Positions 12,715 through 59,800 of a stretch of 64,000 nt of DNA are shown here, piece by piece. The stretch is from Henricia sp. BOLD:AAB3569 (lineage: Eukaryota > Echinodermata > Asteroidea > Spinulosida > Echinasteridae): contig JBBELK010001068.1 in NCBI GenBank assembly GCA_037783545.1, forward strand, positions 124,001-188,000, in the 5' to 3' direction. Positions within the stretch are counted from its first letter, which is position 1, and every line of letters starts with the position of its first letter. The notes beneath the pieces were generated by a model. The model saw nothing but the letters and a program-made list of their open reading frames with translations. It had not been told where the DNA came from and did no database searches. The translations under genes and the position numbers were made by a program.

Positions 12715-12727
12715 ATTTGCCGACGTT
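12715..12727. repeat. Left target-site duplication of SINE copy 1
   Basis: atttgccgacgtt, satellite monomer positions 162-174, repeated at 13017-13029 on the other side of the SINE. All eight SINE copies have this same duplication, except that the right-hand copy of SINE 5 (46711-46723) carries one substitution (gccaacg). Confidence 0.92.
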
Positions 12728-13016
12728 GTTGTTGTTGTTGTTGTATGTTTTATGGCATCTTCGGCAACTATAGGCCCTTTATGCCATCAACTATACGGTT
12801 TTAGCTTTAACTATACTATATTATCAACTTGAGATGACGAAGAAGGAGTTGCAGTTTTAGAAGTGGGAGGAAAACCCCCAGAGAAATGCCCCAGGGGAAA
12901 ACCCACGCGGTCAAGTAGGGACTGCAAACCCAATCCACATACACGCCCCGGATTCGAACCCGGGACCCCAGAGGTGAAAGGCGAGGAAAGAACCCGTACG
13001 CCAACCCGACCGCCCC
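12728..13016 (-). mobile_element. tRNA-derived SINE, copy 1 (V-SINE-like core, CAA tail)
   Basis: Full-length SINE read on the minus strand. The head starts ggggcggtcgggttggcg with an A-box-like ttggcgtacgg (plus 12994-13004) and a perfect B box ggttcgaatcc (plus 12950-12960), the internal pol III promoter of a tRNA. The body (roughly 12862-12943) aligns by eye with the conserved core I remember from V-SINEs such as HE1 and DANA: tttgcag, gcgtgggttttccc and ttttcctccca in the same order and spacing. The 3' region has a 7-bp hairpin (atggcat 12752-12758, atgccat 12781-12787) and ends in five CAA units. It is flanked by a 13-bp target duplication, atttgccgacgtt, at 12715-12727 and 13017-13029. 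The tRNA fold is degenerate, so it is not a tRNA gene. Confidence 0.92.
12950..13004 (-). promoter_or_regulatory. Internal pol III promoter (B box and A box) of SINE copy 1
   Basis: The B box, minus strand ggttcgaatcc, spans plus 12950-12960 and matches the eukaryotic consensus GGTTCGANTCC fully. The A-box-like ttggcgtacgg spans 12994-13004 and is a looser match. Spacing of about 33 bp between them is normal for a tRNA-type promoter. The same arrangement is kept in all eight copies; B boxes lie at 40175, 44250, 45448, 46644, 51115, 53499 and 56764 in copies 2-8. Confidence 0.85.
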
Positions 13017-14377
13017 ATTTGCCGACGTTTGGACCACACTTTGACCAAATTGCCGAGCCAAACTGCGGTGCGTTAACGACAGTCCGAATGACTGAGCATG
13101 CGCACAACTCAGGAGTACCCCAAAGAGGTGTGTACAGACAGCCACGGTTTGCGTGAGAGCAGTCAGGAAGCCTCAACCCAGTTTTTTTCTAAACTTTGAA
13201 ATTTCTCTGCCATTTCCCGGCGAAAGTCTGTCAATTTTTTATGACAAGTGCGCAATATAGAGAGTTTAGGGCATGCAAAATTTGAAGTTCGTCGGAACAT
13301 TTTTCGACCTCCAAATTTGCCGACGTTTGGACCACACTTTGACCAAATTGCCGAGCCAAACTGCGGTGCGTTAACGACAGTCCGAATGACTGAGCATGCG
13401 CACAACTCAGGAGTACCCCAAAGAGGTGTGTACAGACAGCCACGGTTTGCGTGAGAGCAGTCAGGAAGCCTCAACCCAGTTTTTTCTAAACTTTGAAATT
13501 TCTCTGCCATTTCCCGGCGAAAGTCTGTCAATTTTTTATGACAAGTGCGCAATATAGAGAGTTTAGGGCATGCAAAATTTGAAGTTCGTCGGAACATTTT
13601 TCGACCTCCAAATTTGCCGACGTTTGGACCACACTTTGACCAAATTGCCGAGCCAAACTGCGGTGCGTTAACGACAGTCCGAATGACTGAGCATGCGCAC
13701 AACTCAGGAGTACCCCAAAGAGGTGTGTACAGACAGCCACGGTTTGCGTGAGAGCAGTCAGGAAGCCTCAACCCAGTTTTTTCTAAACTTTGAAATTTCT
13801 CTGCCATTTCCCGGCGAAAGTCTGTCAATTTTTTATGACAAGTGCGCAATATAGAGAGTTTAGGGCATGCAAAATTTGAAGTTCGTCGGAACATTTTTCG
13901 ACCTCCAAATTTGCCGACGTTTGGACCACACTTTGACCGAATTGCCGAGCCAAACTGCGGTGCGTTAACGACAGTCCGAATGACTGAGCATGCGCACAAC
14001 TCAGGAGTACCCCAAAGAGGTGTGTACAGACAGCCACGGTTTGCGTGAGAGCAGTCAGGAAGCCTCAACCCAGTTTTTTCTAAACTTTGAAATTTCTCTG
14101 CCATTTCCCGGCGAAAGTCTGTCAATTTTTTATGACAAGTGCGCAATATAGAGAGTTTAGGGCATGCACAATTTGAAGTTCGTCGGAACATTTTTCGACC
14201 TCCAAATTTGCCGACGTTTGGACCACACTTTGACCAAATTGCCGAGCCAAACTGCGGTGCGTTAACGACAGTCCGAATGACTGAGCATGCGCACAACTCA
14301 GGAGTACCCCAAAGAGGTGTGTACAGACAGCCACGGTTTGCGTGAGAGCAGTCAGGAAGCCTCAACCCAGTTTTTTC

Positions 14378-17300
14378 TTAACTTTGAAATTTCTCTGCCA
14401 TTTCCCTGCGAAAGTCTGTCAATTTTTTATGACAAGTGCGCAATATAGAGAGTTTCGGGCATGCAAAATTTGAAGTTCGTCGGAACATTTTTCGACCTCC
14501 AAATTTGCCGACGTTTGGACCACACTTTGACCAAATTGCCGAGCCAAACTGCGGTGCGTTAACGACAGCCCGAATGACTGAGCATGCGCACAACTCAGGA
14601 GTACCCCAAAGAGGTGTGTACAGACAGCCACGGTTTGCGTGAGAGCAGTCAGGAAGCCTCAACCCAGTTTTTTCTAAACTTTGAAATTTCTCTGCCATTT
14701 CCCGGCGAAAGTCTGTCAATTTTGTATGACAAGTGCGCAATATAGAGAGTTTAGGGCATGCAAAATTTGAAGTTCGTCGGAACATTTTTCGACCTCCAAA
14801 TTTGCCGACGTTTGGACCACACTTTGACCAAATTGCCGAGCCAAACTGCAGTGCGTTAACGACAGCCCGAATGACTGAGCATGCGCACAACTCAGGAGTA
14901 CCCCAAAGAGGTGTGTACAGACAGCCACGGTTTGCGTGAGAGCAGTCAGGAAGCCTCAACCCAGTTTTTTCTAAACTTTGAAATTTCTCTGCCATTTCCC
15001 GGCGAAAGTCTGTCAATTTATTTATGACAAGTGCGCAATATAGAGAGTTTAGGGCATGCAAAATTTGAAGTTCGTCGGAACATTTTTCGACCTCCAAATT
15101 TGCCGACGTTTGGACCACACTTTGACCAAATTGCCGAGCCAAACTGCGGTGCGTTAACGACTCAGGAGTACCCCAAAGAGGTGTGTACAGACAGCCACGG
15201 TTTGCGTGAGAGCAGTCAGGAAGCCTCAACCCAGTTTTTTCTAAACTTTGAAATTTCTCTGCCATTTCCCGGCGAAAGTCTGTCAATTTTTTTATGACAA
15301 GTGCGCAATATAGAGAGTTTAGGGCATGCAAAATTTGAAGTTCGTGGGAACATTTTTCGACCTCCAAATTTGCCGACGTTTGGACCACACTTTGACCAAA
15401 TTGCCGAGCCAAACTGCAGTGCGTTAACGACAGCCCGAATGACTGAGCATGCGCACAACTCAGGAGTACCCCAAAGAGGTGTGTACAGACAGCCACGGTT
15501 TGCGTGAGAGCAGTCAGGAAGCCTCAACCCAGTTTTTTCTAAACTTTGAAATTTCTCTGCCATTTCCCGGCGAAAGTCTGTCAATTTTTTATGACAAGTG
15601 CGCAATATAGAGAGTTTAGGGCATGCAAAATTTGAAGTTCGTCGGAACATTTTTCGACCTCCAAATTTGCCGACGTTTGGACCACACTTTGACCAAATTG
15701 CCGAGCCAAACTGCGGTGCGTTAACGACAGTCCGAATGACTGAGCATGCGCACAACTCAGGAGTACCCCAAAGAGGTGTGTACAGACAGCCACGGTTTGC
15801 GTGAGAGCAGTCAGGAAGCCTCAACCCAGTTTTTTCTAAACTTTGAAATTTCTCTGCCATTTCCCGGCGAAAGTCTGTCAATTTTTTATGACAAGTGCGC
15901 AATATAGAGAGTTTAGGGCATGCAAAATTTGAAGTTCGTCGGAACATTTTTCGACCTCCAAATTTGCCGACGTTTGGACCACACTTTGACCAAATTGCCG
16001 AGCCAAACTGCGGTGCGTTAACGACAGTCCGAATGACTGAGCATGCGCACAACTCAGGAGTACCCCAAAGAGGTGTGTACAGACAGCCACGGTTTGCGTG
16101 AGAGCAGTCAGGAAGCCTCAACCCAGTTTTTTCTAAACTTTGAAATTTCTCTGCCATTTCCCGGCGAAAGTCTGTCAATTTTTTATGACAAGTGCGCAAT
16201 TTAGAGAGTTTAGGGCATGCAAAATTTGAAGTTCGTCGGAACATTTTTCGACCTCCAAATTTGCCGACGTTTGGACCACACTTTGACCAAATTGCCGAGC
16301 CAAACTGCGGTGCGTTAACGACAGTCCGAATGACTGAGCATGCGCACAACTCAGGAGTACCCCAAAGAGGTGTGTACAGACAGCCACGGTTTGCGTGAGA
16401 GCAGTCAGGAAGCCTCAACCCAGTTTTTTCTTAACTTTGAAATTTCTCTGCCATTTCCCTGCGAAAGTCTGTCAATTTTTTATGACAAGTGCGCAATATA
16501 GAGAGTTTCGGGCATGCAAAATTTGAAGTTCGTCGGAACATTTTTCGACCTCCAAATTTGCCGACGTTTGGACCACACTTTGACCAAATTGCCGAGCCAA
16601 ACTGCGGTGCGTTAACGACAGCCCGAATGACTGAGCATGCGCACAACTCAGGAGTACCCCAAAGAGGTGTGTACAGACAGCCACGGTTTGCGTGAGAGCA
16701 GTCAGGAAGCCTCAACCCAGTTTTTTCTAAACTTTGAAATTTCTCTGCCATTTCCCGGCGAAAGTCTGTCAATTTTTTATGACAAGTGCGCAATATAGAG
16801 AGTTTAGGGCATGCAAAATTTGAAGTTCGTCGGAACATTTTTCGACCTCCAAATTTGCCGACGTTTGGACCACACTTTGACCAAATTGCCGAGCCAAACT
16901 GCAGTGCGTTAACGACAGCCCGAATGACTGAGCATGCGCACAACTCAGGAGTACCCCAAAGAGGTGTGTACAGACAGCCACGGTTTGCGTGAGAGCAGTC
17001 AGGAAGCCTCAACCCAGTTTTTTCTAAACTTTGAAATTTCTCTGCCATTTCCCGGCGAAAGTCTGTCAATTTATTTATGACAAGTGCGCAATATAGAGAG
17101 TTTAGGGCATGCAAAATTTGAAGTTCGTCGGAACATTTTTCGACCTCCAAATTTGCCGACGTTTGGACCACACTTTGACCAAATTGCCGAGCCAAACTGC
17201 GGTGCGTTAACGACTCAGGAGTACCCCAAAGAGGTGTGTACAGACAGCCACGGTTTGCGTGAGAGCAGTCAGGAAGCCTCAACCCAGTTTTTTCTAAACT

Positions 17301-20300
17301 TTGAAATTTCTCTGCCATTTCCCGGCGAAAGTCTGTCAATTTTTTATGACAAGTGCGCAATATAGAGAGTTTAGGGCATGCAAAATTTGAAGTTCGTGGG
17401 AACATTTTTCGACCTCCAAATTTGCCGACGTTTGGACCACACTTTGACCAAATTGCCGAGCCAAACTGCAGTGCGTTAACGACAGCCCGAATGACTGAGC
17501 ATGCGCACAACTCAGGAGTACCCCAAAGAGGTGTGTACAGACAGCCACGGTTTGCGTGAGAGCAGTCAGGAAGCCTCAACCCAGTTTTTTCTAAACTTTG
17601 AAATTTCTCTGCCATTTCCCGGCGAAAGTCTGTCAATTTTTTTATGACAAGTGCGCAATATAGAGAGTTTAGGGCATGCAAAATTTGAAGTTCGTCGGAA
17701 CATTTTTCGACCTCCAAATTTGCCGACGTTTGGACCACACTTTGACCAAATTGCCGAGCCAAACTGCGGTGCGTTAACGACAGTCCGAATGACTGAGCAT
17801 GCGCACAACTCAGGAGTACCCCAAAGAGGTGTGTACAGACAGCCACGGTTTGCGTGAGAGCAGTCAGGAAGCCTCAACCCAGTTTTTTCTAAACTTTGAA
17901 ATTTCTCTGCCATTTCCCGGCGAAAGTCTGTCAATTTTTTATGACAAGTGCGCAATATAGAGAGTTTAGGGCATGCAAAATTTGAAGTTCGTGGGAACAT
18001 TTTTCGACCTCCAAATTTGCCGACGTTTGGACCACACTTTGACCAAATTGCCGAGCCAAACTGCAGTGCGTTAACGACAGCCCGAATGACTGAGCATGCG
18101 CACAACTCAGGAGTACCCCAAAGAGGTGTGTACAGACAGCCACGGTTTGCGTGAGAGCAGTCAGGAAGCCTCAACCCAGTTTTTTCTAAACTTTGAAATT
18201 TCTCTGCCATTTCCCGGCGAAAGTCTGTCAATTTTTTTATGACAAGTGCGCAATATAGAGAGTTTAGGGCATGCAAAATTTGAAGTTCGTCGGAACATTT
18301 TTCGACCTCCAAATTTGCCGACGTTTGGACCACACTTTGACCAAATTGCCGAGCCAAACTGCGGTGCGTTAACGACAGTCCGAATGACTGAGCATGCGCA
18401 CAACTCAGGAGTACCCCAAAGAGGTGTGTACAGACAGCCACGGTTTGCGTGAGAGCAGTCAGGAAGCCTCAACCCAGTTTTTTCTAAACTTTGAAATTTC
18501 TCTGCCATTTCCCGGCGAAAGTCTGTCAATTTTTTATGACAAGTGCGCAATATAGAGAGTTTAGGGCATGCAAAATTTGAAGTTCGTCGGAACATTTTTC
18601 GACCTCCAAATTTGCCGACGTTTGGACCACACTTTGACCAAATTGCCGAGCCAAACTGCGGTGCGTTAACGACAGTCCGAATGACTGAGCATGCGCACAA
18701 CTCAGGAGTACCCCAAAGAGGTGTGTACAGACAGCCACGGTTTGCGTGAGAGCAGTCAGGAAGCCTCAACCCAGTTTTTTTCTAAACTTTGAAATTTCTC
18801 TGCCATTTCCCGGCGAAAGTCTGTCAATTTTTTATGACAAGTGCGCAATATAGAGAGTTTAGGGCATGCAAAATTTGAAGTTCGTCGGAACATTTTTCGA
18901 CCTCCAAATTTGCCGACGTTTGGACCACACTTTGACCAAATTGCCGAGCCAAACTGCGGTGCGTTAACGACAGTCCGAATGACTGAGCATGCGCACAACT
19001 CAGGAGTACCCCAAAGAGGTGTGTACAGACAGCCACGGTTTGCGTGAGAGCAGTCAGGAAGCCTCAACCCAGTTTTTTCTAAACTTTGAAATTTCTCTGC
19101 CATTTCCCGGCGAAAGTCTGTCAATTTTTTATGACAAGTGCGCAATATAGAGAGTTTAGGGCATGCAAAATTTGAAGTTCGTCGGAACATTTTTCGACCT
19201 CCAAATTTGCCGACGTTTGGACCACACTTTGACCAAATTGCCGAGCCAAACTGCGGTGCGTTAACGACAGTCCGAATGACTGAGCATGCGCACAACTCAG
19301 GAGTACCCCAAAGAGGTGTGTACAGACAGCCACGGTTTGCGTGAGAGCAGTCAGGAAGCCTCAACCCAGTTTTTTCTAAACTTTGAAATTTCTCTGCCAT
19401 TTCCCGGCGAAAGTCTGTCAATTTTTTATGACAAGTGCGCAATATAGAGAGTTTAGGGCATGCAAAATTTGAAGTTCGTGGGAACATTTTTCGACCTCCA
19501 AATTTGCCGACGTTTGGACCACACTTTGACCAAATTGCCGAGCCAAACTGCGGTGCGTTAACGACAGTCCGAATGACTGAGCATGCGCACAACTCAGGAG
19601 TACCCCAAAGAGGTGTGTACAGACAGCCACGGTTTGCGTGAGAGCAGTCAGGAAGCCTCAACCCAGTTTTTTCTAAACTTTGAAATTTCTCTGCCATTTC
19701 CCGGCGAAAGTCTGTCAATTTTTTATGACAAGTGCGCAATATAGAGAGTTTAGGGCATGCAAAATTTGAAGTTCGTGGGAACATTTTTCGACCTCCAAAT
19801 TTGCCGACGTTTGGACCACACTTTGACCAAATTGCCGAGCCAAACTGCGGTGCGTTAACGACAGTCCGAATGACTGAGCATGCGCACAACTCAGGAGTAC
19901 CCCAAAGAGGTGTGTACAGACAGCCACGGTTTGCGTGAGAGCAGTCAGGAAGCCTCAACCCAGTTTTTTCTAAACTTTGAAATTTCTCTGCCATTTCCCG
20001 GCGAAAGTCTGTCAATTTTTTATGACAAGTGCGCAATATAGAGAGTTTAGGGCATGCAAAATTTGAAGTTCGTCGGAACATTTTTCGACCTCCAAATTTG
20101 CCGACGTTTGGACCACACTTTGACCAAATTGCCGAGCCAAACTGCGGTGCGTTAACGACAGTCCGAATGACTGAGCATGCGCACAACTCAGGAGTACCCC
20201 AAAGAGGTGTGTACAGACAGCCACGGTTTGCGTGAGAGCAGTCAGGAAGCCTCAACCCAGTTTTTTCTTAACTTTGAAATTTCTCTGCCATTTCCCGGCG

Positions 20301-23300
20301 AAAGTCTGTCAATTTTTTATGACAAGTGCGCAATATAGAGAGTTTAGGGCATGCAAAATTTGAAGTTCGTCGGAACATTTTTCGACCTCCAAATTTGCCG
20401 ACGTTTGGACCACACTTTGACCAAATTGCCGAGCCAAACTGCGGTGCGTTAACGACAGCCCGAATGACTGAGCATGCGCACAACTCAGGAGTACCCCAAA
20501 GAGGTGTGTACAGACAGCCACGGTTTGCGTGAGAGCAGTCAGGAAGCCTCAACCCAGTTTTTTCTAAACTTTGAAATTTCTCTGCCATTTCCCGGCGAAA
20601 GTCTGTCAATTTTTTATGACAAGTGCGCAATATAGAGAGTTTAGGGCATGCAAAAATTGAAGTTCGTCGGAACATTTTTCGACCTCCAAATTTGCCGACG
20701 TTTGGACCACACTTTGACCAAATTGCCGAGCCAAACTGCAGTGCGTTAACGACAGCCCGAATGACTGAGCATGCGCACAACTCAGGAGTACCCCAAAGAG
20801 GTGTGTACAGACAGCCACGGTTTGCGTGAGAGCAGTCAGGAAGCCTCAACCCAGTTTTTTCTAAACTTTGAAATTTCTCTGCCATTTCCCGGCAAAAGTC
20901 TGTCAATTTATTTATGACAATTGCGCAATATAGAGAGTTTAGGGCATGCAAAATTTGAAGTTCGTCGGAACATTTTTCGACCTCCAAATTTGCCGACGTT
21001 TGGACCACACTTTGACCAAATTGCCGAGCCAAACTGCGGTGCGTTAACGACTCAGGAGTACCCCAAAGAGGTGTGTACAGACAGCCACGGTTTGCGTGAG
21101 AGCAGTCAGGAAGCCTCAACCCAGTTTTTTCTAAACTTTGAAATTTCTCTGCCATTTCCCGGCGAAAGTCTGTCAATTTTTTATGACAAGTGCGCAATAT
21201 AGAGAGTTTAGGGCATGCAAAATTTGAAGTTCGTGGGAACATTTTTCGACCTCCAAATTTGCCGACGTTTGGACCACACTTTGACCAAATTGCCGAGCCA
21301 AACTGCAGTGCGTTAACGACAGCCCGAATGACTGAGCATGCGCACAACTCAGGAGTACCCTAAAGAGGTGTGTACAGACAGCCACGGTTTGCGTGAGAGC
21401 AGTCAGGAAGCCTCAACCCAGTTTTTTCTAAACTTTGAAATTTCTCTGCCATTTCCCGGCCAAAGTCTGTCAATTTTGTATGACAAGTGCGCAATATAGA
21501 GAGTTTAGGGCATGCAAAATTTGAAGTTCGTGGGAACATTTTTCGACCTCCAAATTTGCCGACGTTTGGACCACACTTTGACCAAATTGCCGAGCCAAAC
21601 TGCGGTGCGTTAACGACAGTCCGAATGACTGAGCATGCGCACAACTCAGGAGTACCCCAAAGAGGTGTGTACAGACAGCCACGGTTTGCGTGAGAGCAGT
21701 CAGGAAGCCTCAACCCAGTTTTTTCTAAACTTTGAAATTTCTCTGCCATTTCCCGGCGAAAGTCTGTCAATTTTTTATGACAAGTGCGCAATATAGAGAG
21801 TTTAGGGCATGCAAAATTTGAAGTTCGTGGGAACATTTTTCGACCTCCAAATTTGCCGACGTTTGGACCACACTTTGACCAAATTGCCGAGCCAAACTGC
21901 GGTGCGTTAACGACAGTCCGAATGACTGAGCATGCGCACAACTCAGGAGTACCCCAAAGAGGTGTGTACAGACAGCCACGGTTTGCGTGAGAGCAGTCAG
22001 GAAGCCTCAACCCAGTTTTTTCTAAACTTTGAAATTTCTCTGCCATTTCCCGGCGAAAGTCTGTCAATTTGTTATGACAAGTGCGCAATATAGAGAGTTT
22101 AGGGCATGCAAAATTTGAAGTTCGTGGGAACATTTTTCGACCTCCAAATTTGCCGACGTTTGGACCACACTTTGACCAAATTGCCGAGCCAAACTGCGGT
22201 GCGTTAACGACAGTCCGAATGACTGAGCATGCGCACAACTCAGGAGTACCCCAAAGAGGTGTGTACAGACAGCCACGGTTTGCGTGAGAGCAGTCAGGAA
22301 GCCTCAACCCAGTTTTTTCTTAACTTTGAAATTTCTCTGCCATTTCCCGGCGAAAGTCTGTCAATTTTTTATGACAAGTGCGCAATATAGAGAGTTTAGG
22401 GCATGCAAAATTTGAAGTTCGTCGGAACATTTTTCGACCTCCAAATTTGCCGACGTTTGGACCACACTTTGACCAAATTGCCGAGCCAAACTGCGGTGCG
22501 TTAACGACAGCCCGAATGACTGAGCATGCGCACAACTCAGGAGTACCCCAAAGAGGTGTGTACAGACAGCCACGGTTTGCGTGAGAGCAGTCAGGAAGCC
22601 TCAACCCAGTTTTTTCTAAACTTTGAAATTTCTCTGCCATTTCCCGGCGAAAGTCTGTCAATTTTTTATGACAAGTGCGCAATATAGAGAGTTTAGGGCA
22701 TGCAAAATTTGAAGTTCGTCGGAACATTTTTCGACCTCCAAATTTGCCGACGTTTGGACCACACTTTGACCAAATTGCCGAGCCAAACTGCAGTGCGTTA
22801 ACGACAGCCCGAATGACTGAGCATGCGCACAACTCAGGAGTACCCCAAAGAGGTGTGTACAGACAGCCACGGTTTGCGTGAGAGCAGTCAGGAAGCCTCA
22901 ACCCAGTTTTTTCTAAACTTTGAAATTTCTCTGCCATTTCCCGGCGAAAGTCTGTCAATTTATTTATGACAAGTGCGCAATATAGAGAGTTTAGGGCATG
23001 CAAAATTTGAAGTTCGTCGGAACATTTTTCGACCTCCAAATTTGCCGACGTTTGGACCACACTTTGACCAAATTGCCGAGCCAAACTGCGGTGCGTTAAC
23101 GACAGTCCGAATGATTGAGCATGCGCACAACTCAGGAGTACCCCAAAGAGGTGTGTACAGACAGCCACGGTTTGCGTGAGAGCAGTCAGGAAGCCTCAAC
23201 CCAGTTTTTTCTAAACTTTGAAATTTCTCTGCCATTTCCCGGCGAAAGTCTGTCAATTTTTTATGACAAGTGCGCAATATAGAGAGTTTAGGGCATGCAA

Positions 23301-43645: not shown

Positions 43646-43667
43646 GTACGTACAATTTTCATTAGTT

Positions 43668-44035: not shown

Positions 44036-44316
44036 TGTTGTTGTATGTTTTATGGCATCTTCGGCAACTATAGGCCCTTTATGCCATCAACTATACGGTT
44101 TTAGCTTTAACTATACTATATTATCAACTTGAGATGACGAAGAAGGAGTTGCAGTTTTAGAAGTGGGAGGAAAACCCCCAGAGAAATGCCCCAGGGGAAA
44201 ACCCACGCGGTCAAGTAGGGACTGCAAACCCAATCCACATACACGCCCCGGATTCGAACCCGGGACCCCAGAGGTGAAAGGCGAGGAAAGAACCCGTACG
44301 CCAACCCGACCGCCCC
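44036..44316 (-). mobile_element. tRNA-derived SINE, copy 3 (main part)
   Basis: Continuation of the SINE whose tail end is at 41147-41152. It begins with the transposon's 7-bp duplication tgttgtt inside the GTT tail, then the whole 3' hairpin, V-like core, B box (44250-44260) and head. The right target duplication atttgccgacgtt is at 44317-44329 and pairs with 41134-41146, 2.9 kb away across the transposon. Confidence 0.92.
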
Positions 44317-45222: not shown

Positions 45223-45514
45223 GTTGTTGTTGTTGTTGTTGTATGTTTTATGGCATCTTCGGCAACTATAGGCCCTTTATGCCATCAACTATACGGTTTT
45301 AGCTTTAACTATACTATATTATCAACTTGAGATGACGAAGAAGGAGTTGCAGTTTTAGAAGTGGGAGGAAAACCCCCAGAGAAATGCCCCAGGGGAAAAC
45401 CCACGCGGTCAAGTAGGGACTGCAAACCCAATCCACATACACGCCCCGGATTCGAACCCGGGACCCCAGAGGTGAAAGGCGAGGAAAGAACCCGTACGCC
45501 AACCCGACCGCCCC
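45223..45514 (-). mobile_element. tRNA-derived SINE, copy 4
   Basis: Full-length, with six CAA units. The B box is at 45448-45458 and the 13-bp duplications at 45210-45222 and 45515-45527. By eye it is identical or nearly identical to copy 2. Confidence 0.93.
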
Positions 45515-46418: not shown

Positions 46419-46710
46419 GTTGTTGTTGTTGTTGTTGTATGTTTTATGGCATCTTCGGCAACTATAGGCCCTTTATGCCATCAACTATACGGTTTTAGCT
46501 TTAACTATACTATATTATCAACTTGAGATGACGAAGAAGGAGTTGCAGTTTTAGAAGTGGGAGGAAAACCCCCAGAGAAATGCCCCAGGGGAAAACCCAC
46601 GCGGTCAAGTAGGGACTGCAAACCCAATCCACATACACGCCCCGGATTCGAACCCGGGACCCCAGAGGTGAAAGGCGAGGAAAGAACCCGTACGCCAACC
46701 CGACCGCCCC
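46419..46710 (-). mobile_element. tRNA-derived SINE, copy 5
   Basis: Full-length, six CAA units, B box 46644-46654. The left duplication is at 46406-46418; the right one (46711-46723) has one substitution, gccaacg for gccgacg, which arose after insertion. Confidence 0.93.
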
Positions 46711-49700
46711 ATTTGCCAACGTTTGGACCACACTTTGACCAAATTGCCGAGCCAAACTGCGGTGCGTTAACGACAGTCCGAATGACTGAGCATGCGCACA
46801 ACTCAGGAGTACCCCAAAGAGGTGTGTACAGACAGCCACGGTTTGCGTGAGAGCAGTCAGGAAGCCTCAACCCAGTTTTTTCTAAACTTTGAAATTTCTC
46901 TGCCATTTCCCGGCGAAAGTCTGTCAATTTTTTATGACAAGTGCGCAATATAGAGAGTTTAGGGCATGCAAAATTTGAAGTTCGTCGGAAAATTTTTCGC
47001 CCTCCAAATTTGCCGACGTTTGGACCACACTTTGACCAAATTGCCGAGCCAAACTGCGGTGCGTTAACGACAGTCCGAATGACTAATGACTGAGCATGCG
47101 CACAACTCAGGAGTACCCCAAAGAGGTGTGTACAGACAGCCACGGTTTGCGTGAGAGCAGTCAGGAAGCCTCAACCCAGTTTTTTCTAAACTTTGAAATT
47201 TCTCTGCCATTTCCCGGCGAAAGTCTGTCAATTTTTTATGACAAGTGCGCAATATAGAGAGTTTAGGGCATGCAAAATTTGAAGTTCGTCGGAACATTTT
47301 TCGACCTCCAAATTTGCCGACGTTTGGACCACACTTTGACCAAATTGCCGAGCCAAACTGCGGTGCGTTAACGACTGTCCGAATGACTGAGCATGCGCAC
47401 AACTCAGGAGTACCCCAAAGAGGTGTGTACAGACAGCCACGGTTTGCGTGAGAGCAGTCATGAAGCCTCAACCCAGTTTTTTCTAAACTTTGAAATTTCT
47501 CTGCCATTTCCCGGCGAAAGTCTGTCTATTTTTTATGACAAGTGCGCAATATAGAGAGTTTAGGGCATGCAAAATTTGAAGTTCGTCGGAACATTTTTCG
47601 ACCTCCAAATTTGCCGACGTTTGGACCACACTTTGACCAAATTGCCGAGCCAAACTGCGGTGCGTTAACGACAGTCCGAATGACTGAGCATGCGCACAAC
47701 TCAGGAGTACCCCAAAGAGGTGTGTACAGACAGCCACGGTTTGCGTGAGAGCAGTCAGGAAGCCTCAACCCAGTTTTTTCTAAACTTTGAAATTTCTCTG
47801 CCATTTCCCGGCGAAAGTCTGTCAAGTTGTTATGACAAGTGCGCAATATAGAGAGTTTAGGGCATGCAAAATTTGAAGTTCGTCGGAACATTTTTCGACC
47901 TCCAAATTTGCCGACGTTTGGACCACACTTTGACCAAATTGCCGAGCCAAACTGCGGTGCGTTAACGACAGTCCGAATGACTGAGCATGCGCACAACTCA
48001 GGAGTACACCAAAGAGGTGTGTACAGACAGCCACGGTTTGCGTGAGAGCAGTCAGGAAGCCTCAACCCAGTTTTTTCTAAACTTTGAAATTTCTCTGCCA
48101 TTTCCCGGCGAAAGTCTGTCAATTTTTTATGACAAGTGCGCAATATAGAGAGTTTAGGGCATGCAAAATTTGAAGTTCGTCGGAACATTTTTCGACCTCC
48201 AAATTTGCCGACGTTTGGACCACACTTTGACCAAATTGCCGAGCCAAACTGCGGTGCGTTAACGACAGTCCGAATGACTGAGCATGCGCACAACTCAGGA
48301 GTACCCCAAAGAGGTGTGTACAGACAGCCACGGTTTGCGTGAGAGCAGTCAGGAAGCCTCAACCCAGTTTTTTCTAAACTTTGAAATTTCTCTGCCATTT
48401 CCCGGCGAAAGTCTGTCAATTTTTTATGACAAGTGCGCAATATAGAGAGTTTAGGGCATGCAAAATTTGAAGTTCGTCGGAACATTTTTCGACCTCCAAA
48501 TTTGCCGACGTTTGGACCACACTTTGACCAAATTGCCGAGCCAAACTGCGGTGCGTTAACGACAGTCCGAATGACTGAGCATGCGCACAACTCAGGAGTA
48601 CCCCAAAGAGGTGTGTACAGACAGCCACGGTTTGCGTGAGAGCAGTCAGGAAGCCTCAACCCAGTTTTTTCTAAACTTTGAAATTTCTCTGCCATTTCCC
48701 GGCGAAAGTCTGTCAATTTTTTGTGACAAGTGCGCAATATAGAGAGTTTAGGGCATGCAAAATTTGAAGTTCGTCGGAACATTTTTCGACCTCCAAATTT
48801 GCCGACGTTTGGACCACACTTTGACCAAATTGCCGAGCCAAACTGCGGTGCGTTAACGACAGTCCGAATGACTGAGCATGCGCACAACTCAGGAGTACCC
48901 CAAAGATGTGTGTACAGACAGCCACGGTTTGCGTGAGAGCAGTCAGGAAGCCTCAACCCAGTTTTTTCTAAACTTTGAAATTTATCTGCTATTTCCCGGC
49001 GAAAGTCTGTCAATTTTTTATGACAAGTGCGCAATATAGAGAGTTTAGGGCATGCACAATTTGAAGTTCGTCGGAACATTTTTCGACCTCCAAATTTGCC
49101 GACGTTTGGACCACACTTTGACCAAATTGCCGAGCCAAACTGCGGTGCGTTAACGACAGTCCGAATGACTGAGCATGCGCACAACTCAGGAGTACCCCAA
49201 AGAGGTGTGTACAGACAGCCACGGTTTGCGTGAGAGCAGTCAGGAAGCCTCAACCCAGTTTTTTCTAAACTTTGAAATTTCTCTGCCATTTCCCGGCGAA
49301 AGTCTGTCAATTTTTTATGACAAGTGCGCAATATAGAGAGTTTAGGGCATGCAAAATTTGAAGTTCGTCGGAACATTTTTCGACCTCCAAATTTGCCGAC
49401 GTTTGGACCACACTTTGACCAAATTGCCGAGCCAAACTGCGGTGCGTTAACGACAGTCCGAATGACTGAGCATGCGCACAACTCAGGAGTACCCCAAAGA
49501 GGTGTGTACAGACAGCCACGGTTTGCGTGAGAGCAGTCAGGAAGCCTCAACCCAGTTTTTTTCTAAACTTTGAAATTTCTCTGCCATTTCCCGGCGAAAG
49601 TCTGTCAATTTTTTATGACAAGTGCGCAATATAGAGAGTTTAGGGCATGCAAAATTTGAAGTTCGTCGGAACATTTTTCGACCTCCAAATTTGCCGACGT

Positions 49701-50889
49701 TTGGACCACACTTTGACCAAATTGCCGAGCCAAACTGCGGTGCGTTAACGACAGTCCGAATGACTGAGCATGCGCACAACTCAGGAGTACCCCAAAGAGG
49801 TGTGTACAGACAGCCACGGTTTGCGTGAGAGCAGTCAGGAAGCCTCAACCCAGTTTTTTCTAAACTTTGAAATTTCTCTGCCATTTCCCGGCGAAAGTCT
49901 GTCAATTTTTTGTGACAAGTGCGCAATATAGAGAGTTTAGGGCATGCAAAATTTGAAGTTCGTCGGAACATTTTTCGACCTCCAAATTTGCCGACGTTTG
50001 GACCACACTTTGACCAAATTGCCGAGCCAAACTGCGGTGCGTTAACGACAGTCCGAATGACTGAGCATGCGCACAACTCAGGAGTACCCCAAAGAGGTGT
50101 GTACAGACAGCCACGGTTTGCGTGAGAGCAGTCAGGAAGCCTCAACCCAGTTTTTTCTAAACTTTGAAATTTCTCTGCCATTTCCCGGCGAAAGTCTGTC
50201 AATTTTTTATGACAAGTGCGCAATATAGAGAGTTTAGGGCATGCAAAATTTGAAGTTCGTGGGAACATTTTTCGACCTCCAAATTTGCCGACGTTTGGAC
50301 CACACTTTGACCAAATTGCCGAGCCAAACTGCGGTGCGTTAACGACAGTCCGAATGACTGAGCATGCGCACAACTCAGGAGTACCCCAAAGAGGTGTGTA
50401 CAGACAGCCACGGTTTGCGTGAGAGCAGTCAGGAAGCCTCAACCCAGTTTTTCCTAAACTTTGAAATTTCTCTGCCATTTCCCGGCGAAAGTCTGTCATT
50501 TTTTTATGACAAGTGCGCAATATAGAGAGTTTAGGGCATGCAAAATTTGAAGTTCGTCGGAACATTTTTCGACCTCCAAATTTGCCGACGTTTGGACCAC
50601 ACTTTGACCAAATTGCCGAGCCAAACTGCGGTGCGTTAACGACAGTCCGAATGACTTAGCATGCGCACAACTCAGGAGTACGCCAAAGAGGTGTGTACAG
50701 ACAGCCACGGTTTGCGTGAGAGCAGTCAGGAAGCCTTAACCCAGTTTTTTCTAAACTTTGAAATTTCTCTGCCATTTCCCGGCGAAAGTCTGTCAATTTT
50801 TTATGACAAGTGCGCAATATAGAGAGTTTAGGGCATGCAAAATTTGAAGTTCGTCGGAACATTTTTCGACCTCCAAATTTGCCGACGTT
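46711..50889. repeat. Satellite block 7 (about 14 monomers)
   Basis: Begins with the compound-unit marker tcggaaaattttt and a 7-bp tandem duplication (47078-47091). It then returns to near-consensus monomers, including tttatctgctatttcc at about 48982 (seen again at about 51665), catgcacaatttg variants and the gtacgccaaag variant at about 50678 (again at about 53064). Confidence 0.97.
47078..47091. other. 7-bp tandem duplication in a monomer
   Basis: aatgact occurs twice in direct succession where other monomers have it once. It shifts the reading frame of the satellite ORF, which stops soon afterwards, evidence that the frame is not under strong constraint. Confidence 0.88.
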
Positions 50890-51181
50890 GTTGTTGTTGT
50901 TGTTGTTGTATGTTTTATGGCATCTTCGGCAACTATAGGCCCTTTATGCCATCAACTATACGGTTTTAGCTTTAACTATACTATATTATCAACTTGAGAT
51001 GACGAAGAAGGAGTTGCAGTTTTAGAAGTGGGAGGAAAACCCCCAGAGAAATGCCCCAGGGGAAAACCCACGCGGTCAAGTAGGGACTGCAAACCCAATC
51101 CACATACACGCCCCGGATTCGAACCCGGGACCCCAGAGGTGAAAGGCGAGGAAAGAACCCGTACGCCAACCCGACCGCCCC
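50890..51181 (-). mobile_element. tRNA-derived SINE, copy 6
   Basis: Full-length, six CAA units, B box 51115-51125, 13-bp duplications at 50877-50889 and 51182-51194. It shares its flanking monomer variants with copy 7, about 2,384 bp downstream (seven monomers plus the SINE). Confidence 0.93.
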
Positions 51182-53273
51182 ATTTGCCGACGTTTGGACC
51201 ACACTTTGACCAAATTGCCGAGCCAAACTGCGGTGCGTTAACGACAGTCCGAATGACTGAGCATGCGCACAACTCAGGAGTACCCCAAAGAGGTGTGTAC
51301 AGACAGCCACGGTTTGCGTGAGAGCAGTCAGGAAGCCTCAACCCAGTTTTTTCTAAACTTTGAAATTTCTCTGCCATTTCCCGGCGAAAGTCTGTCGATT
51401 TTTTATGACAAGTGCGCAATATAGAGAGTTTAGGGCATGCAAAATTTGAAGTTCGTCGGAAAATTTTTCGACCTCCAAATTTGCCGACGTTTGGACCACA
51501 CTTTGACCAAATTGCCGAGCCAAACTGCGGTGCGTTAACGACAGTCCGAATGACTGAGCATGCGCACAACTCAGGAGTACCCCAAAGAGGTGTGTACAGA
51601 CAGCCACGGTTTGCGTGAGAGCAGTCAGGAAGCCTCAACCCAGTTATTTCTAAACTTTGAAATTTATCTGCTATTTCCCGGCGAAAGTCTGTCAATTTTT
51701 TATGACAAGTGCGCAATATAGAGAGTTTAGGGCATGCACAATTTGAAGTTCGTCGGAACATTTTTCGACCTCCAAATTTGCCGACGTTTGGACCACACTT
51801 TGACCAAATTGCCGAGCCAAACTGCGGTGCGTTAACGACAGTCCGAATGACTGAGCATGCGCACAACTCAGGAGTACCCCAAAGAGGTGTGTACAGACAG
51901 CCACGGTTTGCGTGAGAGCAGTCAGGAAGCCTCAACCCAGTTTTTTCTAAACTTTGAAATTTCTCTGCCATTTCCCGGCGAAAGTCTGTCAATTTTTTAT
52001 GACAAGTGCGCAATATAGAGAGTTTAGGGCATGCAAAATTTGATGTTCGTCGGAACATTTTTCGACCTCCAAATTTGCCGACGTTTGGACCACACTTTGA
52101 CCAAATTGCCGAGCCAAACTGCGGTGCGTTAACGACAGTCCGAATGACTGAGCATGCGCACAACTCAGGAGTACCCCAAAGAGGTGTGTACAGACAGCCA
52201 CGGTTTGCGTGAGAGCAGTCAGGAAGCCTCAACCCAGTTTTTTCTAAACTTTGAAATTTCTCTGCCATTTCCCGGCGAAAGTCTGTCAATTTTTTATGAC
52301 AAGTGCGCAATATAGAGAGTTTAGGGCATGCAAAATTTGAAGTTCGTGGGAACATTTTTCGACCTCCAAATTTGCCGACGTTTGGACCACACTTTGACCA
52401 AATTGCCGAGCCAAACTGCGGTGCGTTAACGACAGTCCGAATGACTGAGCATGCGCACAACTCAGGAGTACCCCAAAGAGGTGTGTACAGACAGCCACGG
52501 TTTGCGTGAGAGCAGTCAGGAAGCCTCAACCCAGTTTTTTCTAAACTTTGAAATTTCTCTGCCATTTCCCGGCGAAAGTCTGTCAATTTTTTATGACAAG
52601 TGCGCAATATAGAGAGTTTAGGGCATGCAAAATTTGAAGTTCGTCGGAACATTTTTCGACCTCCAAATTTGCCGACGTTTGGACCACACTTTGACCAAAT
52701 TGCCGAGCCAAACTGCGGTGCGTTAACGACAGTCCGAATGACTGAGCATGCGCACAACTCAGGAGTACCCCAAAGAGGTGTGTACAGACAGCCACGGTTT
52801 GCGTGAGAGCAGTCAGGAAGCCTCAACCCAGTTTTTCCTAAACTTTGAAATTTCTCTGCCATTTCCCGGCGAAAGTCTGTCATTTTTTTATGACAAGTGC
52901 GCAATATAGAGAGTTTAGGGCATGCAAAATTTGAAGTTCGTCGGAACATTTTTCGACCTCCAAATTTGCCGACGTTTGGACCACACTTTGACCAAATTGC
53001 CGAGCCAAACTGCGGTGCGTTAACGACAGTCCGAATGACTGAGCATGCGCACAACTCAGGAGTACGCCAAAGAGGTGTGTACAGACAGCCACGGTTTGCG
53101 TGAGAGCAGTCAGGAAGCCTTAACCCAGTTTGTTCTAAACTTTGAAATTTCTCTGCCATTTCCCGGCGAAAGTCTGTCAATTTTTTATGACAAGTGCGCA
53201 ATATAGAGAGTTTAGGGCATGCAAAATTTGAAGTTCGTCGGAACATTTTTCGACCTCCAAATTTGCCGACGTT
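51182..53273. repeat. Satellite block 8 (seven monomers)
   Basis: 2,092 bp between SINE copies 6 and 7. Marker tcggaaaattttt is at about 51459; gtttttcctaaac with gtacgccaaag near 52830-53070 repeats the pattern seen at 50450-50690 before copy 6, so the SINE, the seven monomers and these markers were duplicated together. Confidence 0.96.
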
Positions 53274-53565
53274 GTTGTTGTTGTTGTTGTTGTATGTTTT
53301 ATGGCATCTTCGGCAACTATAGGCCCTTTATGCCATCAACTATACGGTTTTAGCTTTAACTATACTATATTATCAACTTGAGATGACGAAGAAGGAGTTG
53401 CAGTTTTAGAAGTGGGAGGAAAACCCCCAGAGAAATGCCCCAGGGGAAAACCCACGCGGTCAAGTAGGGACTGCAAACCCAATCCACATACACGCCCCGG
53501 ATTCGAACCCGGGACCCCAGAGGTGAAAGGCGAGGAAAGAACCCGTACGCCAACCCGACCGCCCC
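53274..53565 (-). mobile_element. tRNA-derived SINE, copy 7
   Basis: Full-length, six CAA units, B box 53499-53509, 13-bp duplications at 53261-53273 and 53566-53578. The next monomer again carries tcggaaaattttt (about 53842). Confidence 0.93.
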
Positions 53566-56550
53566 ATTTGCCGACGTTTGGACCACACTTTGACCAAATT
53601 GCCGAGCCAAACTGCGGTGCGTTAACGACAGTCCGAATGACTGAGCATGCGCACAACTCAGGAGTACCCCAAAGAGGTGTGTACAGACAGCCACGGTTTG
53701 CGTGAGAGCAGTCAGGAAGCCTCAACCCAGTTTTTTCTAAACTTTGAAATTTCTCTGCCATTTCCCGGCGAAAGTCTGTCAATTTTTTATGACAAGTGCG
53801 CAATATAGAGAGTTTAGGGCATGCAAAATTTGAAGTTCGTCGGAAAATTTTTCGACCTCCAAATTTGCCGACGTTTGGACCACACTTTGACCAAATTGCC
53901 GAGCCAAACTGCGGTGCGTTAACGACAGTCCGAATGACTGAGCATGCGCACAACTCAGGAGTACCCCAAAGAGGTGTGTACAGACAGCCACGGTTTGCGT
54001 GAGAGCAGTCAGGAAGCCTCAACCCAGTTATTTCTAAACTTTGAAATTTCTCTGCCATTTCCCGGCGAAAGTCTGTCTATTTTTTATGACAAGTGCGCAA
54101 TATAGAGAGTTTAGGGCATGCAAAATTTGAAGTTCGTCGGAACATTTTTCGACCTCCAAATTTGCCGACGTTTGGACCACACTTTGACCAAATTGCCGAG
54201 CCAAACTGCGGTGCGTTAACGACAGTCCGAATGACTGAGCATGCGCACAACTCAGGAGTACCCCAAAGAGGTGTGTACAGACAGCCACGGTTTGCGTGAG
54301 AGCAGTCATGAAGCCTCAACCCAGTTTTTTCTAAACTTTGAAATTTCTCTGCCATTTCCCCAGCGAAAGTCTGTCTATTTTTTATGACAAGTGCGCAATA
54401 TAGAGAGTTTAGGGCATGCAAAATTTGAAGTTCGTCGGAACATTTTTCGACCTCCAAATTTGCCGACGTTTGGACCACACTTTGACCAAATTGCCGAGCC
54501 AAACTGCGGTGCGTTAACGACAGTCCGAATGACTGAGCATGCGCACAACTCAGGAGTACCCCAAAGAGGTGTGTACAGACAGCCACGGTTTGCGTGAGAG
54601 CAGTCAGGAAGCCTCAACCCAGTTTTTTCTAAACTTTGAAATTTCTCTGCCATTTCCCGGCGAAAGTCTGTCAATTTGTTATGACAAGTGCGCAATATAG
54701 AGAGTTTAGGGCATGCAAAATTTGAAGTTCGTCGGAACATTTTTCGACCTCCAAATTTGCCGACGTTTGGACCACACTTTGACCAAATTGCCGAGCCAAA
54801 CTGCGGTGCGTTAACGACAGTCCGAATGACTGAGCATGCGCACAACTCAGGAGTACCCCAAAGAGGTGTGTACAGACAGCCACGGTTTGCGTGAGAGCAG
54901 TCAGGAAGCCTCAACCCAGTTTTTTCTAAACTTTGAAATTTCTCTGCCATTTCCCGGCGAAAGTCTGTCAATTTTTTATGACAAGTGCGCAATATAGAGA
55001 GTTTAGGGCATGCAAAATTTGGAGTTCGTCGGAACATTTTTCGACCTCCAAATTTGCCGACGTTTGGACCACACTTTGACCAAATTGCCGAGCCAAACTG
55101 CGGTGCGTTAACGACAGTCCGAATGACTGAGCATGCGCACAACTCAGGAGTACCCCAAAGAGGTGTGTACAGACAGCCACGGTTTGCGTGAGAGCAGTCA
55201 GGAAGCCTCAACCCAGTTTTTTCTAAACTTTGAAATTTCTCTGCCATTTCCCGGCGAAAGTCTGTCAATTTTTTATGACAAGTGCGCAATATAGAGAGTT
55301 TAGGGCATGCAAAATTTGGAGTTCGTCGGAACATTTTTCGACCTCCAAATTTGCCGACGTTTGGACCACACTTTGACCAAATTGCCGAGCCAAACTGCGG
55401 TGCGTTAACGACAGTCCGAATGACTGAGCATGCGCACAACTCAGGAGTACCCCAAAGAGGTGTGTACAGACAGCCACGGTTTGCGTGAGAGCAGTCAGGA
55501 AGCCTCAACCCAGTTTTTTCTAAACTTTGAAATTTCTCTGCCATTTCCCAGCGAAAGTCTGTCAATTTTTTATGACAAGTGCGCAATATAGAGAGTTTAG
55601 GGCATGCAAAATTTGAAGTTCGTCGGAACATTTTTCGACCTCCAAATTTGCCGACGTTTGGACCACACTTTGACCAAATTGCCGAGCCAAACTGCGGTGC
55701 GTTAACGACAGTCCGAATGACTGAGCATGCGCACAACTCAGGAGTACCCCAAAGAGGTGTGTACAGACAGCCACGGTTTGCGTGAGAGCAGTCAGGAAGC
55801 CTCAACCCAGTTTTTTCTAAACTTTGAAATTTCTCTGCCATTTCCCGGCGAAAGTCTGTCAATTTTTTATAACAAGTGCGCAATATAGAGAGTTTAGGGC
55901 ATGCAAAATTTGAAGTTCGTCGGAACATTTTTCGACCTCCAAATTTGCCGACGTTTGGACCACACTTTGACCAAATTGCCGAGCCAAACTGCGGTGCGTT
56001 AACGACAGTCCGAATGACTGAGCATGCGCACAACTCAGGAGTACCCCAAAGAGGTGTGTACAGACAGCCACGGTTTGCGTGAGAGCAGTCAGGAAGCCTC
56101 AACCCAGTTTTTTTCTAAACTTTGAAATTTCTCTGCCATTTCCCGGCGAAAGTCTGTCAATTTTTTATGACAAGTGCGCAATATAGAGAGTTTAGGGCAT
56201 GCAAAATTTGAAGTTCGTCGGAACATTTTTCGACCTCCAAATTTGCCGACGTTTGGACCACACTTTGACCAAATTGCCGAGCCAAACTGCGGTGCGTTAA
56301 CGACAGTCCGAATGACTGAGCATGCGCACAACTCAGGAGTACCCCAAAGAGGTGTGTACAGACAGCCACGGTTTGCGTGAGAGCAGTCAGGAAGCCTCAA
56401 CCCAGTTTTTTCTAAACTTTGAAATTTCTCTGCCATTTCCTGGCGAAAGTCTGTCTATTTTTTATGACAAGTGCGCAATATAGAGAGTTTAGGGCATGCA
56501 AAATTTGAAGTTCGTCGGAACATTTTTCGACCTCCAAATTTGCCGACGTT
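53566..56550. repeat. Satellite block 9 (ten monomers)
   Basis: 2,985 bp. Two adjacent monomers share the private variant aaaatttggagttcg (about 55014 and 55311), a very recent duplication. Other variants include catttccccagcg (about 54355) and tataacaag (about 55868). Confidence 0.96.
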
Positions 56551-56830
56551 GTTGTTGTATGTTTTATGGCATATTCGGCAACTATAGGCCCTTTATGCCA
56601 TCAACTATACGGTTTTAGCTTTAACTACACTATATTATCAACTTGAGATGACGAAGAAGGAGTTGCAGTTTTAGAAGTGGGAGGAAAACCCCCAGAGAAA
56701 TGCCCCAGGGGAAAACCCATGCGGTCAAGTAGGGACTGCAAACCCAATCCACATACACGCCCCGGATTCGAACCCGGGACCCCAGAGGTGAAAGGCGAGG
56801 AAAGAACCCGTACGCCAACCCGACCGCCCC
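56551..56830 (-). mobile_element. tRNA-derived SINE, copy 8 (short tail, most diverged)
   Basis: Same site and same 13-bp duplication (56538-56550 and 56831-56843), B box 56764-56774, but only two CAA units and private substitutions (catattcgg, actacacta, cccatgcgg). Its downstream monomers lack the tcggaaaattttt marker of copies 2-7 and instead have catgcacaatttg and aaatttaccgacg (about 57090-57130). It represents a separate lineage of the SINE-bearing unit. Confidence 0.92.
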
Positions 56831-59800
56831 ATTTGCCGACGTTTGGACCACACTTTGACCAAATTGCCGAGCCAAACTGCGGTGCGTTAACGACAGTCCG
56901 AATGACTGAGCATGCGCACAACTCAGGAGTACCCCAAAGAGGTGTGTACAGACAGCCACGGTTTGCGTGAGAGCAGTCAGGAAGCCTCAACCCAGTTTTT
57001 TCTAAACTTTGAAATTTCACTGCCATTTCCCGGCGAAAATCTGTCAATTTTTTATGACAAGTGCGCAATATAGAGAGTTTAGGGCATGCACAATTTGAAG
57101 TTCGTCGGAACATTTTTCGACCTCCAAATTTACCGACGTTTGGACCACACTTTGACCAAATTGCCGAGCCAAACTGCGGTGCGTTAACGACAGTCCGAAT
57201 GACTGAGCATGCGCACAACTCAGGAGTACCCCAAAGAGGTGTGTACAGACAGCCACGGTTTGCGTGAGAGCAGTCAGGAAGCCTCAACCCAGTTTTTTCT
57301 AAACTTTGAAATTTCTCTGCCATTTCCCGGCGAAAGTCTGTCAATTTTTTATGACAAGTGCGCAATATAGAGAGTTTAGGGCATGCAAAATTTGAAGTTC
57401 GTCGGAACATTTTTCGACCTCCAAATTTGCCGACGTTTGGACCACACTTTGACCAAATTGCCGAGCCAAACTGCGGTGCGTTAACGACAGTCCGAATGAC
57501 TGAGCATGCGCACAACTCAGAAGTACCCCAAAGAGGTGTGTACAGACAGCCACGGTTTGCGTGAGAGCAGTCAGGAAGCCTCAACCCAGTTTTTTCTAAA
57601 CTTTGAAATTTCTCTGCCATTTCCCGCCGAAAGTCTGTCAATTTTTTATGACAAGTGCGCAATATAGAGAGTTTAGGGCATGCAAAATTTGAAGTTCGTC
57701 GGAACATTTTTCGACCTCCAAATTTGCCGACGTTTGGACCACACTTTGACCAAATTGCCGAGCCAAACTGCGGTGCGTTAACGACAGTCCGAATGACTGA
57801 GCATGCGCACAACTCAGGAGTACCCCAAAGAGGTGTGTACAGACAGCCACGGTTTGCGTGAGAGCAGTCAGGAAGCCTCAACCCAGTTTTTTCTAAACTT
57901 TGAAATTTCTCTGCCATTTCCCGGCGAAAGTCTGTCAATTTTTTATGACAAGTGCGCAATATAGAGAGTTTAGGGCATGCAAAATTTGAAGTTCGTCGGA
58001 ACATTTTTCGACCTCCAAATTTGCCGACGTTCGGACCACACTTTGACCAAATTGCCGAGCCAAACTGCGGTGCGTTAACGACAGTCCGAATGACTGAACA
58101 TGCGCACAACTCAGGAGTACCCCAAATAGGTGTGTACAGACAGCCACGGTTTGCGTGAGAGCAGTCAGGAAGCCTCAACCCAGTTTTTTCTAAACTTTGA
58201 AATTTCTCTGCCATTTCCTGGCGAAAGTCTGTCAATTTTGTATGACAAGTGCGCAATATAGAGAGTTTAGGGCATGCAAAATTTGAAGTTCGTCGGAACA
58301 TTTTTCGACCTCCAAATTTGCCGACGTTTGGACCACACTTTGACCAAATTGACGAGCCAAACTGCGGTGCGTTAACGACAGTCCGAATGACTGAGCATGC
58401 GCACAACTCAGGAGTACCCCAAAGAGGTGTGTACAGACAGCCACGGTTTGCGTGAGAGCAGTCAGGAAGCCTCAACCCAGTTTTTTCTAAACTTTGAAAT
58501 TTCTCTGCCATTTCCCGGCGAAAGTCTGTCAATTTGTTATGACAAGTGCGCAATATAGAGAGTTTAGGGCATGCAAAATTTGAAGTTCGTCGGAACATTT
58601 TTCGACCTCCAAATTTGCCGACGTTTGGACCACACTTTGACCAAATTGCCGAGCCAAACTGCGGTGCGTTAACGACAGTCCGAATGACTGAGCATGCGCA
58701 CAACTCAGGAGTACCCCAAAGAGGTGTGTACAGACAGCCACGGTTTGCGTGAGAGCAGTCAGGAAGCCTCAACCCAGTTTTTTCTAAACTTTGAAATTTC
58801 TCTGCCATTTCCCGGCGAAAGTCTGTCAATTTTTTATGACAAGTGCGCAATATAGAGAGTTTAGGGCATGCAAAATTTGAAGTTCGTCGGAATATTTTTC
58901 GACCTCCAAATTTGCCGACGTTTGGACCACACTTTGACCAACTTGCCGAGCCAAACTGCGGTGCGTTAACGACAGTCCGAATGACTGAGCATGCGCACAA
59001 CTCAGGAGTACCCCAAAGAGGTGTGTACAGACAGCCACGGTTTGCGTGAGAGCAGTCAGGAAGCCTCAACCCAGTTTTTTCTAAACTTTGAAATTTCTCT
59101 GCCATTTCCCGGCGAAAGTCTGTCAATTTTTTATGACAAGTGCGCAATATAGAGAGTATAGGGCATGCAAAATGTTAAGTTCGTCGGAACATTTTTCGAC
59201 CTCCAAATTTGCCGACGTTTGGACCACACTTTGACCAAATTGCCGAGCCAAACTGCGGTGCGTTAACGACAGTCCGAATGACTGAGCATGCGCACAACTC
59301 AGGAGTACCCCAAAGAGGTGTGTACAGACAGCCACGGTTTGCGTGAGAGCAGTCAGGAAGCCTCAACCCAGTTTTTTCTAAACTTTGAAATTTCTCTGCC
59401 ATTTCCCGGCGAAAGTCTGTCAATTTTTTATGACAAGTGCGCAATATAGAGAGTTTAGGGCATGCAAAATTTGAAGTTCGTCGGAACATTTTTCGACCTC
59501 CAAATATGCCGACGTTTGGACCACACTTTGACCAAATTGCCGAGCCAAACTGCGGTGCGTTAACGACAGTCCGAATGACTGAGCATGCGCACAACTCAGG
59601 AGTACCCCAAAGAGGTGTGTACAGACAGCCACGGTTTGCGTGAGAGCAGTCAGGAAGCCTCAACCCAGTTTTTTCTAAACTTTGAAATTTCTCTGCCATT
59701 TCCGGGCGAAAGTCTGTCAATTTTGTATGACAAGTGCGCAATATAGAGAGTTTAGGGCATGCAAAATTTGAAGTTCGTCGGAACATTTTTCGACCTCCAA

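Follow-up and report, generated by a model that had tools for sequence, protein, structure and literature searches.

We analysed a 64,000-nucleotide stretch of the Henricia sp. genome (the window; contig C1068, positions 124,001 to 188,000 of the 740.7-Mb assembly), which consists entirely of a satellite with a 297-bp monomer and contains eight copies of a short interspersed nuclear element (SINE) at one position of that monomer. The eight share their junctions, carry two marks private to satellite copies and lie among flanking monomers whose variants agree with those of the SINEs. We read this, with a probability of about 0.9, as one retroposition into a monomer followed by multiplication of the SINE-bearing block through satellite turnover, other insertions at the same nick being apparently independent. 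An earlier note on this DNA had likewise proposed one insertion spread with the satellite and not by retrotransposition, and the private marks, the concordant haplotypes and a local unit of one SINE plus three monomers uphold that proposal.

The satellite array and its SINE copies

The array and its SINEs are arranged as follows, with the span including duplications in brackets.

1..64000 (C1068:124001-188000), plus strand: array of the 297-bp satellite
12728-13016 (12715..13029), minus strand: SINE copy 1, tail (GTT)6G, flank variants common to C969:56814
39950..46723, plus strand: higher-order block of four SINEs with exactly three monomers between neighbours, one SINE holding a 2.9-kb insert
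39953-40241 (39937..40254), minus strand: SINE copy 2
44036-44316 and 41147-41152 (41134..44329), minus strand: SINE copy 3, cut in two by a tail insert
45226-45514 (45210..45527), minus strand: SINE copy 4
46422-46710 (46406..46723), minus strand: SINE copy 5, G-to-A change in the right duplication
50893-51181 (50877..51194), minus strand: SINE copy 6
53277-53565 (53261..53578), minus strand: SINE copy 7
56548-56830 (56538..56843), minus strand: SINE copy 8, short tail (GTT)3G and three substitutions

All eight SINEs lie on the minus strand between copies of ATTTGCCGACGTT, a 13-bp duplication present on both sides of each, at one monomer position with the same duplication and orientation, as the earlier note had described. 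The length of the duplication is best given as 10-13 bp, because its last GTT is ambiguous against the SINE tail, which is also GTT. Junctions are the same in all eight copies except for one point change (the G-to-A at 46711 in the right-hand duplication of copy 5) and tail length. Over 281-289 bp seven copies show 100 % identity, and copy 8 has three substitutions. With the duplication's own GTT included, five copies have the tail (GTT)7G, the one at 12728 has (GTT)6G and the one at 56548 has (GTT)3G; a 2,883-bp insert interrupts the tail of copy 3. Allowing up to one mismatch, the 13-mer has 204 matches in the window, against 0.17 expected in shuffles, and 203 of these serve as monomer boundaries; the target is therefore simply the monomer. 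The exact 13-mer occurs 291,408 times across the assembly, which at 297 bp apiece suggests that the satellite makes up about one tenth of it.

The element is 289 bp long with a 3′ tail of (AAC)n in its own sense. It contains the sequence GGTTCGAATCC, which we take to be an RNA polymerase III (pol III) B box by our working consensus; it is exact in all eight SINEs, and these are the only eight matches to the pattern in the window. The exact 5′ 22-mer is found 2,493 times genome-wide, a count that includes the heads of a composite element described below. We aligned 30 rows of non-satellite copies representing 26 distinct places (two locus pairs overlap); five of the 30 loci sought gave no full-length row, one of them being a satellite locus with the composite element. 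Twenty rows have a target duplication of 8-18 bp, the longest including tail letters, six were set aside as repeats by our own rule and four lack a clean duplication. The element was classed as a SINE on its dispersed copies with their own duplications, its internal pol III B box and its simple-repeat 3′ tail. No tRNA match was found in Rfam for one copy at E values up to 10 or over 39800-47100 at E up to 1, nor by ARAGORN on the window, and with no tRNA model matching, a tRNA-derived origin was not adopted. At C10:315684 and C10:647624 two SINEs stand in tandem about 300 bp apart with one duplication sequence in common, and the pair occurs twice on that contig, with near-identical flanks.

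Diagnostic marks and flanking monomers

Relative to the consensus of the 30 non-satellite rows, all eight window SINEs carry the substitution A4G and an inserted T (+T28). Among the 59 copies read at the window junction, one of which reads GTTTGCC rather than ATTTGCC, 53 have both marks and six have neither. These 53 are the only carriers of both among 131 aligned SINEs, the combination being absent from all 30 non-satellite rows and from all 42 satellite copies with other junctions. The exact 38-mer spanning both marks occurs 171 times genome-wide, and the first 100 of these lie on at least 11 contigs, all of them likewise among the contigs that bear the junction; the 11 may include alleles. 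The exact junction itself occurs 190 times (100 listed). The earlier note had held that window SINEs closer to SINEs elsewhere in the genome than to each other would speak for targeted re-insertion; the closest relative of each is instead a satellite copy, from which seven have 0 differences and the eighth has 2, the closest of the 30 non-satellite rows being at 2 and 5 differences.

Splitting the array at the target site gave 204 segments, 191 of which were aligned; the 13 omitted were the eight SINE segments, the two window edges, two segments of 443 bp and one of 961 bp that holds the composite insert. The monomer variant C145T is present in 5 of the 191, every one directly upstream of a SINE, and G137T in three, every one the third after a SINE; of the ten with C268A, six follow a SINE directly and four lie elsewhere. 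When compared with 2,000 random sets of eight, the rare flank variants in common gave p values of 0.0005, 0.001 and 0.0025 at offsets -1, +1 and +3. Shifting the eight along the array with their spacing kept gave a mean summed sharing of 30.1 and a maximum of 106.9 over 50 shifts, against 158.6 at the true positions.

SINE and flank haplotypes across contigs

We read 32 further satellite copies from 30 loci, making 40 with those of the window, and their SINE and flank haplotypes largely agree. SINE and flank distances are correlated over 39 copies (one with a length change was omitted), with a Spearman coefficient of 0.22 that was reached by none of 2,000 permutations and none of 5,000 permutations within contigs. 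The earlier note had proposed a comparison of SINE with flank tree; the maximum-likelihood SINE tree was uninformative and lacks a supported clade of derived copies. Pairs with the same derived SINE variant (37) share a mean of 4.8 flank variants, as against 0.27 for the other 704 pairs.

Particular haplotypes extend over several contigs. SINEs with T191C, on C313 and C265, have five flank variants in common. A 16-base tail accompanies the downstream variant S38A in four of five copies on two contigs, and a 10-base tail accompanies the upstream variant S203T in all three such copies among the 40, on three contigs; S203T is also present in one copy with a 22-base tail, and for three more 10-base-tail copies on C498 the flank fetched was too short to judge it. 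Copy 8 is a member of the 10-base-tail group, sharing C16A, the tail and the upstream variant with C287:132413 and the tail and that variant with C313:138566. Copy 1 and C969:56814 agree in S209C and S237C on the upstream side and, downstream, in an extra T at 152, which is common in the window (28 of 191 monomers). From these matches the two outlying copies, 1 and 8, each likely have a partner on another contig.

Several observations weigh against a single origin. Only six of the 16 flank offsets fall below 0.05, uncorrected, and ten do not. In the window, copies 1 and 8 have hardly any flank variants in common with the six remaining SINEs; what links them is the two diagnostics and their partners on other contigs, and with these they share only one to three flank variants. 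The absence of a supported derived clade from the SINE tree belongs here too; the derived copies are defined by only one substitution and one indel, the latter not modelled. It is also possible that a non-satellite source SINE with both marks lies outside the 100 of 171 places listed.

The sequence of events that we favour begins with a single SINE retroposition into one satellite monomer. Target-primed reverse transcription probably began at the nick CCGACGTT|TGG, where the GTT 3′ end would be able to base-pair with the tail of the SINE RNA, (AAC)n. The inserted copy would have had, or acquired, A4G and +T28. Satellite turnover then most probably multiplied the block bearing it, whether through unequal exchange or through segmental duplication and perhaps with some conversion, and the eight copies of the window and roughly 170-190 genome-wide would be the result. 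Other, apparently independent insertions would have used the same nick in other contigs and subfamilies, most being amplified locally in turn.

Other SINEs at the same nick

The earlier note had reasoned that independent insertions would not produce such a pattern. This premise did not hold: we read ten groups of SINEs at the window nick genome-wide, and on five contigs these lie in subfamilies too diverged for a common insertion, barring conversion. We accordingly rejected common position alone as proof of one event. Six copies at the window junction, on C440, C488, C770 and C969, lack the marks. A scan of the same nick that did not depend on the junction (100 of 222 matches listed) identified SINEs at the boundaries TTTGCC (C199, C278, C371), CTTTGCC (C278), TTTTGCC (C649) and TGCC (C814). 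Twelve of these further copies were read: those on C199, C371 and C649 and three of the four on C278 have private changes in the SINE, and those on C814 and the fourth on C278 have the plain family consensus. G160A was found both on C278 and at C969:100435 and is hence not private to one group. In the nearness test applied above, each of the 18 unmarked copies at the junction or nick (C440, C488, C770, C969:100435, C199, C278, C371, C649, C814) has a closer relative among the non-satellite SINEs than in the window lineage.

On C488, C770, C278, C371 and C814 the right flank has at least 13-34 differences per 260 bp from the window lineage, and the SINEs at least 2-5, with 0-3 from a non-satellite copy; the 53 derived copies differ by a mean of 2.8 in the flank and 1.3 in the SINE. 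We read the SINEs of these diverged subfamilies as independent insertions, because one old insertion would need conversion to give such divergence. The groups on C440, C199, C649 and at C969:100435 are near the window subfamily (flank minimum 0-4) and are told apart by SINE marks only, C199 and C649 also by their boundaries. Three loci have left and right junctions that do not match, namely L091 (C278:430240-431200; left GAGAGTT, right TTTGCC), L045 (C969:99820-100800) and L089 (C199:125240-126200), which would reflect either a deletion or SINEs at two different sites having recombined.

Landing positions within the monomer

A second site, GAGAGTT|T, accounts for 54 of 58 junctions in a scan by the right end, all 58 being listed. 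Twenty copies were read there. The 16 with both junctions clean make up about 12 haplotype groups, a number similar to that at the window nick, and C313, C530, C623 and C1438 have one of these groups in common. Two of the 16, on C1518 and C1914, sit at this position in monomers that lack the GTT, which argues against strict GTT pairing. A third site, CACAGG, has all ten junctions of its own scan, on C140 and C1273, and three of these were read. SINE heads also join the satellite at GCATG, GACTG, GTCAG, GCATGC and AATTTG, and exclusive targeting of one site was rejected on that ground. A site-specific retroelement was likewise rejected, as other monomer positions are used and the targets of the non-satellite copies are unrelated.

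Of roughly 31-34 groups, 22 lie at the two favoured sites. Grouping was by contig group, boundary and haplotype, a judgement and not a test, and omits the composite element along with any copy whose junctions are displaced; the five exact-letter anchors used reach 258 of the 297 monomer positions in one orientation, with 39 outside. Repeated use of the two sites is strongly indicated. GTT|T is common to most copies read at both, and the last base of the 20 non-satellite duplications is T in 11, G in six and A in three, which, with ends ambiguous against the tail, loosely fits GTT/AAC pairing. We think it more probable than not that the monomer is a standing landing pad, with the SINE machinery repeatedly nicking the same two sites, mostly at GTT|T and with about 290,000 occurrences genome-wide, and satellite turnover copying many of the landings.

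Alternative explanations

The two favoured sites might instead be those at which the array tolerates and amplifies insertions, and not nick sites of the enzyme. That insertions exist at other monomer positions and that 15 of the 22 groups are listed with more than one copy would suit such a filter, to which we give a minor though real chance; against it, each of the other seven is represented by just one exact junction (main site: C440 and C770; second site: C543, C766, C1208, C1518 and C1650), and most copies read at both sites have GTT|T in common.

For the spread of the window lineage, short-tract gene conversion in place of unequal exchange or block duplication seems to us slightly less probable again. 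Speaking for it are the peak of flank sharing within three monomers and the mismatched left and right junctions at C969:100435, C278:430818 and C199:125817; against it, multi-monomer blocks recur, among them that of four SINEs and that of the T191C clade, in which at least three monomers match.

Descent of all SINEs at the nick from one old insertion, with no recurrence, we regard as improbable. The copies on C440, C488 and C770 do have the ATTTGCC boundary of the window and, with the plain-consensus SINEs of C814 and C278, form a star around the family consensus; the flanks of the five diverged contigs are however far more different than their SINEs, and the boundaries vary from ATTTGCC through TTTGCC, CTTTGCC and TTTTGCC to TGCC.

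Eight separate insertions from one active source SINE at the same site, which the apparently repeated striking of that site in this genome and the differing flanks and tails of copies 1 and 8 might recommend, are very improbable and were rejected on the concordance of SINE and flank haplotypes within and across contigs and on two marks seen in no non-satellite row, the exact three-monomer spacing of four SINEs also speaking against them.

Relation to known systems

Retroposons at the same site with the same duplication are classically held to be identical by descent. Inside the satellite of this genome that argument appears to fail, because on present evidence the same site was independently struck several times; distinguishing a single amplified insertion from a number of separate ones calls for private mutations together with flank haplotypes. 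If the monomer is indeed a landing pad, the SINE would gain a second route of replication and the satellite would be re-seeded time and again with this element at that one base. In satellites, common descent could then no longer be argued from position, orientation and duplication. The insertions also double as tags with which the movement of satellite blocks between arrays can be followed. The site-specific non-long terminal repeat elements R1 and R2 have a repeated ribosomal DNA target with many insertions at one base. Unlike these, the present SINE is also found at many unrelated genomic sites and shows a preference, not strict specificity.

Complex higher-order repeats are described as "frequently with extraneous sequence elements" (PMC5615363), and resemble the present array in that foreign sequence is multiplied as part of the repeat; here a single insertion, present on 11 contigs or more, is distinguishable from apparently independent ones at the same base. 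At CanSINE loci, four and six independent insertions were told apart by different, overlapping target duplications (PMC4084570). Independent insertions at one locus are distinguished by their duplications in such hot spots, while here the hot spot is a base in a satellite monomer, its 13-mer present 291,408 times, with many insertions then amplified. L1-dependent insertion has used sites in NF1 twice, independently (PMC3219598); those are human L1 and Alu disease alleles, with no satellite involved. Among the papers listed by literature searches we found no account of a satellite monomer struck recurrently at one base with local amplification afterwards, which is weak evidence of novelty, and the passages of PMC10048060 consulted have nothing on recurrent same-base landing in a satellite. 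The kind of event is familiar; what stands out is that amplification comes after recurrence.

Other inserts and structural markers in the window

Two further inserts were identified; the earlier note had mentioned neither the splitting of copy 3 nor the composite insert.

41153..44035, unstranded: insert in the tail of SINE copy 3, 2,883 bp, with 28-nt inverted termini that are 82 % complementary
7630-8299: composite insert, 670 bp, carrying the SINE 5′ 32 bp at another monomer position

The first has a target duplication of TGTT or TGTTGTT (ambiguous) and no open reading frame over 99 amino acids, the longest being 99; it is presumably a DNA transposon. The composite element has the exact SINE 5′ 32-36 bp fused to unrelated sequence with 67-bp tandem repeats and ends in AATAAAACATTTTAGAAAAA in the element sense. 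It was noted at window 7630-8299 and at the loci L088, L132, L133 and L134. The composite junction of SINE head and AAACTG makes up 64 of 100 and 85 of 100 among the matches listed (602 and 658 in total), and all five copies read are composites. The element has the appearance of a SINE-headed retrocopy multiplied along with the satellite.

Besides the SINE, recurring markers of the array include the two 443-bp segments and a 28-bp deletion in three monomers. Monomers of 269-270 bp were found at 15111, 17164, 21001 and 36726, the first three with the same 28-bp deletion, which is a further structural marker spread by the array.

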